A stretch of 38,065 nt of DNA from an alpha proteobacterium AAP38 (GTDB taxonomy: Bacteria > Pseudomonadota > Alphaproteobacteria > Azospirillales > Azospirillaceae): positions 1-38,065 of the forward strand of contig LJHR01000018.1 in the NCBI GenBank assembly GCA_001296005.1, given 5' to 3'. Within the stretch, counting starts at the first letter, position 1. Every line of letters begins with the position of its first letter. The notes beneath the pieces were generated by a model. That model was not told where the DNA came from. It did no database searches and worked only from the letters and a program-made list of their open reading frames with translations. Below are positions 5,708 through 23,714 of this stretch, in pieces. The position numbers and the translations under genes were made by a program.

Positions 5708-5712
5708 AATTG

Positions 5713-5741
5713 CTGACTTTGGTCACCGTCTTTGTTACACT
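5713..5741 (+). promoter_or_regulatory. Promoter of putative small RNA copy A
   Basis: A sigma-70-like promoter: -35 CTGACT (5713-5718), a 17-base spacer, -10 TACACT (5736-5741). The second copy of the element at 23693-23665 has the same TGCTGACTT block and 17-base spacer with TACAAT. The spacer sequences themselves differ, as expected for a functional promoter under selection. Confidence 0.6.
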
Positions 5742-5747
5742 CTGCTC

Positions 5748-5837
5748 CCCAACAGCATTCCTGCGCTCAGCCCCCGTCGATGCATCTGGCATCGATGTCG
5801 GCGGGCCGTGAACGGTGAAACGCCCCTTTATTTTTTG
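5748..5837 (+). ncRNA. Putative small RNA, copy A
   Basis: A predicted transcript of about 90 nt starting some seven bases after the -10. It has a 5' motif AACAGCATTCC (5751-5761) and a hairpin TCGATGC-ATCTG-GCATCGA (5777-5795). A second hairpin follows, GGG-CCG-TGAA-CGG-...-CCC (5803-5825), and leads into a U-rich tract. Copy B on the other strand at 23658-23567 has the same order and spacing of parts. Its first hairpin has an entirely different sequence but is still perfectly paired, which is the mark of structure under selection. Reading frames do not stay aligned across the conserved blocks, so a coding explanation is unlikely. I do not recognise the family. The transcript ends are inferred. 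Confidence 0.55.
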
Positions 5838-5891
5838 TTTCATCTGGTTGCATCTGGCTGGAGTTGCCTGACAGGCAGCTCCGAATTCAGC
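5816..5891 (+). repeat. Conserved dispersed element, copy A
   Basis: Two blocks are shared with 23503-23588 in the opposite orientation. Block 1 (5816-5852) matches at 32 of 37 positions and ends in a 17-base exact match TGTTTCATCTGGTTGCA. Block 2 (5879-5891) is an exact 13-base match, CTCCGAATTCAGC. They are separated by 26 bases here and 36 in copy B. The spacer here holds a strong hairpin (GGAGTTGCCTG / CAGGCAGCTCC). Block 1 includes the U-rich tract of the putative small RNA, and the rest lies beyond the predicted 3' end. Confidence 0.75.
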
Positions 5892-5963
5892 AGGTCGAAG
5901 ACAACAAAAGTCACCCCTGCCTCTGACAGGGTAGGCCTCGAATAGAACGACCTTTGACTTACC

Positions 5964-23502: not shown

Positions 23503-23588
23503 GCTGAATTCGGAGGTCACAAAGGCTCGGCTCCGGGCGGGTTGGGCTTCGTGCAACCAGATGAAACAGAAAACAAGGGGGTGTTACA
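23503..23588 (-). repeat. Conserved dispersed element, copy B
   Basis: The minus-strand counterpart of 5816-5891. Block 1 is 23588-23552 (32 of 37 identical, with a 17-base exact core at 23568-23552). Block 2 is 23515-23503 (13 of 13 identical). The 36-base spacer is unrelated in sequence to that of copy A. The block 2 end lies only 24 bases from the acyl-CoA dehydrogenase stop. Confidence 0.75.
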
Positions 23589-23658
23589 TGGGGTACACCC
23601 TTGCCATCGCGAAAGCCGATGGCTTTCGGTGCGCACAGACATGGGAATGGCGTTGATG
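23567..23658 (-). ncRNA. Putative small RNA, copy B
   Basis: A predicted transcript of about 92 nt on the minus strand. In order it has the 5' motif AACGCCATTCC (23654-23644; 9 of 11 identical to copy A), hairpin CGAAAGCC-ATC-GGCTTTCG (23628-23610), hairpin GGGTGT/ACACCC (23600-23579) and then a U-rich tract. The first hairpin begins 37 bases after the -10, against 36 in copy A, and block 1 begins 77 bases after it, against 75. The stem sequences differ completely but pairing is perfect in both. It is antisense to nothing annotated and lies between two plus-strand genes. Confidence 0.55.
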
Positions 23659-23664
23659 CGTCGC

Positions 23665-23693
23665 ATTGTATCAGGGATCGCGCGGGAAGTCAG
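23665..23693 (-). promoter_or_regulatory. Promoter of putative small RNA copy B
   Basis: On the minus strand: -35 CTGACT (23693-23688), a 17-base spacer, -10 TACAAT (23670-23665). The block TGCTGACTT is identical to that of copy A, with identical spacing to the -10. Confidence 0.6.
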
Positions 23694-23714
23694 CAGTTCG
23701 GGCCTCTGTGCCGC

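Follow-up and report, generated by a model that had tools for sequence, protein, structure and literature searches.

A roughly 40-copy family of intergenic elements with promoter-like blocks and a conserved three-heptamer core in one clade of Niveispirillum

The 38,065-nucleotide stretch of the alpha proteobacterium AAP38 genome analysed here (the window) holds two intergenic loci, copies A and B, which the initial annotation presented as paralogous small RNA genes of roughly 90 nt, each with a promoter, two hairpins (the first of them covarying) and a terminating U-rich tract; the question raised is whether these loci are RNA genes or copies of something else. We see about an even chance that they belong to a dispersed, promoter-carrying intergenic repeat that has been inherited in place and whose core is a putative DNA-protein site. 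This reading rests on copy number, on the shared sequence and regular spacing of promoter and core, on their slow change between orthologs, on synteny and on empty sites. That the two loci are paralogs with a common promoter-like block held up, as both are members of a true family of short non-coding intergenic elements, roughly 40 copies strong and restricted to one clade of Niveispirillum, with 38 covariance-model matches and 44 core-pattern matches (at most 3 mismatches) in the genome of the window (G000).

The promoter block, 17-base spacer, 5' motif and hairpin arms named at the outset are all in place in both copies (Table 1). In copy A, CTGACT ends at 5718 and TACACT occupies 5736-5741, with 17 bases between them (5719-5735), and the hairpin TCGATGC/GCATCGA lies at 5777-5783/5789-5795. 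The extent of the unit had to be redrawn: it is about 180-195 bp long rather than roughly 90 nt, and the U-rich tract proposed as its end sits inside the conserved core. Mean column identity between A and B is 76%, and the two agree best downstream (3') of the hairpins (TGTTTCATCTGGTTGCA, 17/17; CTCCGAATTCAGC, 13/13). A full copy comprises a promoter-like block, a hairpin-prone leader, a three-heptamer core and, often, the palindrome TTCGGAG/CTCCGAA.

Table 1. Features of copies A and B in the window, and arrays of cores at other loci
Feature	Position	Strand	Basis or detail
Copy A, whole	5711-5892 (right end approximate)	+	sequence
Copy A, -35 block TGCTGACTT	5711..5719	+	alignment with copy B; consensus of 77 copies
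Copy A, extended -10 TGTTACACT	5733..5741	+	13 bases past the -35 block
Copy A, 5' motif AACAGCATTCC	starts 5751	+	
Copy A, variable leader	5742..5815	+	hairpin arms 5770-5783 / 5789-5802
Copy A, core TGAAACG-N13-TGTTTCA-N3-GGTTGCA	5816..5852	+	exact pattern match
Copy A, end palindrome GGAGTTGCCTG/CAGGCAGCTCC and right end CTCCGAATTCAGCA	5860..5892	+	
Copy B, whole	23695-23503 (right end approximate)	-	sequence
Copy B, -35 block TGCTGACTT	23687..23695	-	
Copy B, extended -10 TGATACAAT	23665..23673	-	TACAAT 23670-23665
Copy B, variable leader	23589..23664	-	perfect 8-bp hairpin CGAAAGCC/GGCTTTCG, 23628-23621 / 23617-23610
Copy B, core TGTAACA-N13-TGTTTCA-N3-GGTTGCA	23552..23588	-	one mismatch to pattern
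Copy B, end region	23503..23535	-	CGGAG 23535-23531, CTCCG 23515-23511
Copy B, right end CTCCGAATTCAGC	23515-23503	-	
Tandem core arrays	L277 1355-1568; L278 1369-1624; L280 1412-1626; L284 1319-1634; L286 1390-1594; L293 1358-1545		

A BLAST search with copy A returned 13 places in its own genome, copy B included, and a covariance model was built from an alignment of 21 copies, A and B being among the training copies. Eleven Niveispirillum genomes were examined (including G000-G003, G005-G007, G009 and G010), and the search of relatives proposed by the annotation did yield further homologs: 37 matches in G006, 27 in G003, 21 in G009, 20 in G005, 10 in G007 and 2 in G002, i.e., five other species with 10-37 each, and none in the other four Niveispirillum species. 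Under stricter filters the model matched in 8 of 59 genomes overall, and outside the genus in 1 of 48, with a single weak match (E=0.005). The core pattern, at up to 3 mismatches, gave 48 matches in G006, 28 in G003, 25 in G009, 21 in G005, 6 in G007, 3 in G002 and 1 in G010, none in three Niveispirillum species, and, when its letters were reversed as a control, none in every genome scanned. Of 385 Alphaproteobacteria genomes sampled, three contain an exact core, and they are the sample's only three Niveispirillum genomes. Scanning named genomes brought up eight stretches, of which N. lacus has four, a Niveispirillum MAG two, and Azospirillum soli and an Asticcacaulis MAG one each. The A. soli stretch (L141 1739-1777) is an exact core match directly before a membrane-transport-like reading frame (as read from its translation), and is possibly due to chance; the Asticcacaulis contig (L142 1325-1363), whose copy closely resembles the one in L035, is perhaps a misbinned Niveispirillum contig.

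The plasmid collection has one Niveispirillum record, NZ_CP025614.1 of N. cyanobacteriorum TH16, where no annotated feature lies beneath the match in a gene table that is itself incomplete; the phage collection has no Niveispirillum record. Assignment to an Rfam family found nothing credible: Rfam 15 gave no match in the window at gathering score and none in seven further loci, and at relaxed thresholds copy A drew three sub-threshold matches, none better than E 0.16, all to families that are eukaryotic or unrelated. Nothing was found in the literature on small RNA in Niveispirillum; among the matches listed, no Niveispirillum title concerned repeats and no title under Azospirillum 'repetitive extragenic' concerned such elements, and in PMC2573895 'mosaic element' and 'RIME' are not present as whole words.

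We collected 137 distinct cores (at most 4 mismatches) from the loci fetched, which are a part of the model matches. Within 150 nt upstream, 64 of the 137 have a match (at most 3 mismatches) to the consensus TGCTGACTT-N13-TGCTAnnnT, a sigma-70-type promoter with an extended -10, versus 0/136 on the opposite side and 7/788 in shifted windows; a refined scan raised the count to 77/137, with a gap from TGCTGACTT to TGnTAnnnT of 13 in 72 of these 77 copies and of 14 in five. Many copies have a promoter-like sequence of their own, and others consist of the core alone; the first scan recognised no promoter in 73 of 137. The two copies of the window share the block and the 17-base spacer, as first described, yet a promoter scan called only copy B promoter-like (spacer 17, TG ahead of TACAAT) and called none in copy A. 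The claim of a terminator at the end of the unit found no support, in that intrinsic terminators after the promoter were not enriched (5/56 forward vs 6/56 reverse). Five copies (L034, L038, L039, L040 and L045) have the -35 block within the loop of an inverted repeat upstream of the core, whose arms differ between copies (e.g., GCGGGCGGAA/TTCCGCCCGC in L034); this repeat might also terminate transcription of the upstream gene, and a fold z was computed for four of the five.

The core spans 37 bp, TGMAACR-N13-TGTTKCA-N3-nGTTKCR, i.e., three heptamers (TGTTKCA and its inverse) centred at 0, 20 and 30 bp, with spacers of 13 and 3 in 77 of 80 distinct cores. Mismatches are few: among the 137 cores, 68 have none and 44 have one (112/137 with at most one, where four were allowed). 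As an RNA stem, heptamers 1 and 2 would pair in 91.5% of cells, yet no two-sided change occurs in 21 copies, and the letter meant to pair them varies independently (47/17 vs 8/6, p=0.33; 80 cores). We read the core as a DNA site rather than an RNA stem, and it is probably one contacted by a protein, although its letters could equally form an RNA site. An ECF-sigma-like or sigma-54-like reading was set aside as the spacing does not fit those consensus sequences. The heptamer TGTTTCA, present in the copy A core, is half of the parS site, TGTTTCACGTGAAACA; the core holds such ParB-type halves in everted order, and a partition-like or chromosome-organising protein is thus conceivable as its reader. 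ParB itself was rejected for this role: the true parS sites are located elsewhere, TGTTTCACGTGAAACA occurring twice in G000 at 3.4 kb apart (C7:184604-184619 and 187963-187978), and the core is without the palindrome. Tandem arrays of degenerate cores (TGMAACA-N13-TGTTKCACAn-nGTTKCRCAGG) also lie in gaps adjoining unrelated genes, and the one in L286 retains a promoter-like block upstream.

The leader, about 70 nt between promoter and core, changes fast and is likely hairpin-prone. Its mean folding z is -1.13 (n=57, copies that are not independent, since orthologs are included) vs -0.17 in control windows (n=171, p=2e-7) and -0.62 for its own reverse complement (p=0.03); an earlier run on 41 copies gave -1.31. 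Perfect hairpins of at least 7 bp occur in 8/57 leaders vs 8/249 controls (p=0.003) and of at least 6 bp in 13/57 vs 28/249 (p=0.03), and the hairpin-length distribution as a whole is not shifted relative to controls (p=0.20). Template switching in quasi-palindromes would also give perfect hairpins without selection. The claim of a covarying first hairpin survives in the leader's folding and in the enrichment of long perfect hairpins, and covariation itself is borderline and only suggestive; the second hairpin is at chance level, with 6/57 leaders vs 25/285 shuffles.

On covariation, the 21 aligned copies have pair counts that do not exceed shuffles and a structure that does better than slid versions of itself, both in percentage paired and in covariation score. 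Among the 57 leaders, three column pairs stand slightly above the null maximum (0.22, 0.22 and 0.21 vs 0.20), and, in shuffles that ignore the relatedness of copies, the best 5-pair run (columns 25 and 76 inward, with the second-best, at columns 47 and 69, nested inside it) is matched by 1/40, and runs of 3 and of 4 pairs by 6/40 each. Alignments of 19 ortholog groups fold with a mean z of -1.84 vs column-shuffled alignments, a generous value because column shuffling does not keep dinucleotides, and they contain 32 compensatory, 62 half and 60 broken cells. A closing stem of 5' CAAC with 3' GUUG, plausible in single folds, was dropped because, by eye in the alignment, the 5' letters vary while GUUG is constant. 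In L128 (about 2940-2975) the leader has a TTTCGGAGCGATCCGC unit in tandem repeats, which suggests that TTCGGAG forms a separate module.

Comparison of orthologs separates these parts. The copies are syntenic between species: 33 groups have at least one flank common to copies in other species (24 cores are single), and 117 of 144 ortholog links are supported by both flanks. Between G000 and G006 (23 groups), fixed core letters differ at 11/552 positions (2.0%) and the core spacer at 80/299 (26.8%), the leader at 169/899 (18.8%; 13 groups, gaps excluded) and the flanks, which are largely coding, at 7.6%; in 16 pairs from these two species the -35 nonamer differs at 5/144 positions, and of the five letters fixed in the -10, 1/80 has changed. 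Divergence of fixed core, core spacer, leader and flanks is 3.2, 16.2, 7.6 and 5.2% for G000/G005; 4.2, 37.9, 19.2 and 7.7% for G005/G006; 4.9, 39.7, 33.6 and 12.1% for G000/G009; and 4.2, 44.2, 37.7 and 10.7% for G000/G003, such that fixed core letters diverge less than the core spacer in all five species pairs run. This slow change of promoter and core points to selection on them and not on the leader's letters, and the family is probably under selection; the low divergence is nonetheless partly one of ascertainment, because copies are counted only if the core (at most 4 mismatches) or the promoter is recognised, a requirement that also makes lost copies invisible to the ortholog counts. The paralogs are old, judged by sequence identity: among 18 full copies in G000, pairs have a median of 69% and reach at most 77%.

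Copy A lies between the acetyl-CoA synthetase gene (acs) and a convergent pentapeptide-repeat gene, with a terminator-like site for the latter's strand just past it (5931-5915), and copy B runs up to the 3' end of an acyl-CoA dehydrogenase gene. Neighbours were assigned to 36 G000 copies with a simple gene caller. Downstream, 19 of these copies face a convergent gene and 17 a codirectional one, with a convergent gene beyond all eleven copies that score highest; upstream, the gene points the same way as the element in 27, points away from it in 7 and is of unknown direction in 2. Among 27 neighbour proteins scanned (a subset) there was no shared function and no recurrent DNA-binding protein; they are mostly metabolic or housekeeping, mostly of one family each, with acyl-CoA dehydrogenase and Rieske proteins found twice each.

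Origin is where two alternatives meet the evidence. The copies could be what is left of a miniature transposable element, functionless today, whose left end included the -35 block and whose spread accounts for the conservation; we consider this unlikely. Two sites, those of copy A and of a copy on contig C25 (L081), are empty in the sister species G007, as such an element would leave them: at the former, the acs terminator and its T run are followed in G007, across 42 nt that separate the aligned blocks, by the pentapeptide gene (G001 is likewise without the element there), and at the latter, 5 nt separate the aligned blocks vs 256 in G000. For the G006 copy of L120, the flanks are too rearranged to place an orthologous empty site. 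Because four Niveispirillum species are without model matches, gain is simpler than loss by parsimony, though loss in G007 is possible. The element is thus short, multi-copy and absent from orthologous sites in relatives, as expected of a MITE; furthermore, the ends of copy A (5711-5722 and 5881-5892) are 83% complementary over 12 nt, and a right-end motif with at least 10/12 matches recurs in 11/57 copies vs 1/478 control windows. Against this, the right-end matches fall in few ortholog families (15 copies inspected) and overlap the TTCGGAG palindrome, exact repeats of the ends are no commoner than with shuffled partners, no target duplication is visible in the 15 flank pairs inspected (the empty sites being too diverged to place ends), the paralogs are old, and between orthologs the spacers vary much more than the core and promoter letters that they separate, ascertainment accounting for part of the last. 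MITE membership of the family is not established. Spread as REP/BIME-type palindromic repeats by a RAYT transposase, which would suit the intergenic setting, the tens of copies and the arrays in places, is highly improbable and largely refuted by the occurrence of the Y1 transposase family in only 1/11 Niveispirillum genomes (G000, one match of 24.5 bits against a cut-off of 23); it would require a RAYT too divergent for that family model to recognise.

The alternative closest to the original proposal is a large family of sibling small RNAs in which each full copy would be an sRNA gene, the core its shared functional region (RNA that pairs with other RNA or binds a protein) and the leader hairpin a structural domain. 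It is a tentative possibility, as is a trans-acting RNA. For the sRNA family speak the promoter-like blocks, the strand-biased leader folding, the ortholog-group fold with its compensatory cells, the rarely matched 5-pair helix, the enriched long hairpins and the convergent genes downstream of the best-scoring copies. However, broken cells outnumber compensatory ones, pair counts in the 21 copies are at shuffle level, terminators are not enriched, and the core has a rigid, helical spacing and is found also without a promoter and in arrays. Some evidence also weighs against the repeat with a DNA site that we prefer: better folding than controls and reverse complement, together with borderline covariation, points to an RNA role; over half of the cores (73/137) are without a recognised promoter in the first scan; and part of the low divergence of core and promoter is ascertainment.

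Under the preferred reading of a dispersed repeat, the family would have multiplied among the ancestors of one Niveispirillum clade and afterwards been inherited in place. The promoter would be active, and the core would be read as DNA by a protein contacting one helix face; transcription toward the next gene, with a protein bound downstream, would insulate or tune the intergenic region, and the transcript may be without a sequence-specific role of its own. More speculatively, and with some doubt on our part, a putative protein could read the three-heptamer site from one helix face across the ~40 elements, many with a promoter, to form a one-clade network with fast-turnover hairpin transcripts as its output. 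Dozens of gene-less promoter-like blocks with a rigid motif, gained within one genus, would offer a clean system for how repeats become regulatory networks, where the core is usable directly as bait for a candidate binding protein and sister species without copies serve as natural controls.

By analogy, the family would work most like Correia or QMITE elements. QMITE1 and QMITE2 of Coxiella burnetii, at about 50 copies, are described as giving rise to sRNAs and as keeping their positions from strain to strain; QMITE1 carries sigma-70 promoters, and QMITE2 is 150-190 bp long and found mainly in 3' untranslated and intergenic regions (PMC5896051, as excerpted). The likeness is one of description rather than sequence, and covers copy number, size, intergenic position, a sigma-70-type promoter and retention in place; in contrast, a GTAG REP and direct repeats of 7-11 nt belong to QMITE2 (PMC5896051), and neither was seen in the Niveispirillum family, where the conserved parts are the promoter block and the three-heptamer core while the leader turns over. 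Correia repeat enclosed elements of Neisseria are dispersed short repeats with promoter sequences that can bind IHF, and their location is mostly conserved between strains (PMC2649163, as excerpted). They resemble our family in having, by sequence, a promoter within a dispersed repeat, and differ in that inverted-repeat ends are part of their description (PMC2649163), whereas the Niveispirillum ends are only imperfectly alike. A genus-specific RNA family of Bartonella occurs in tandem with DNA-binding protein genes (PMC5387305); the 27 scanned Niveispirillum neighbours have no such recurrent partner and no shared family, and the likeness lies in genus-limited, multi-copy, non-coding units.
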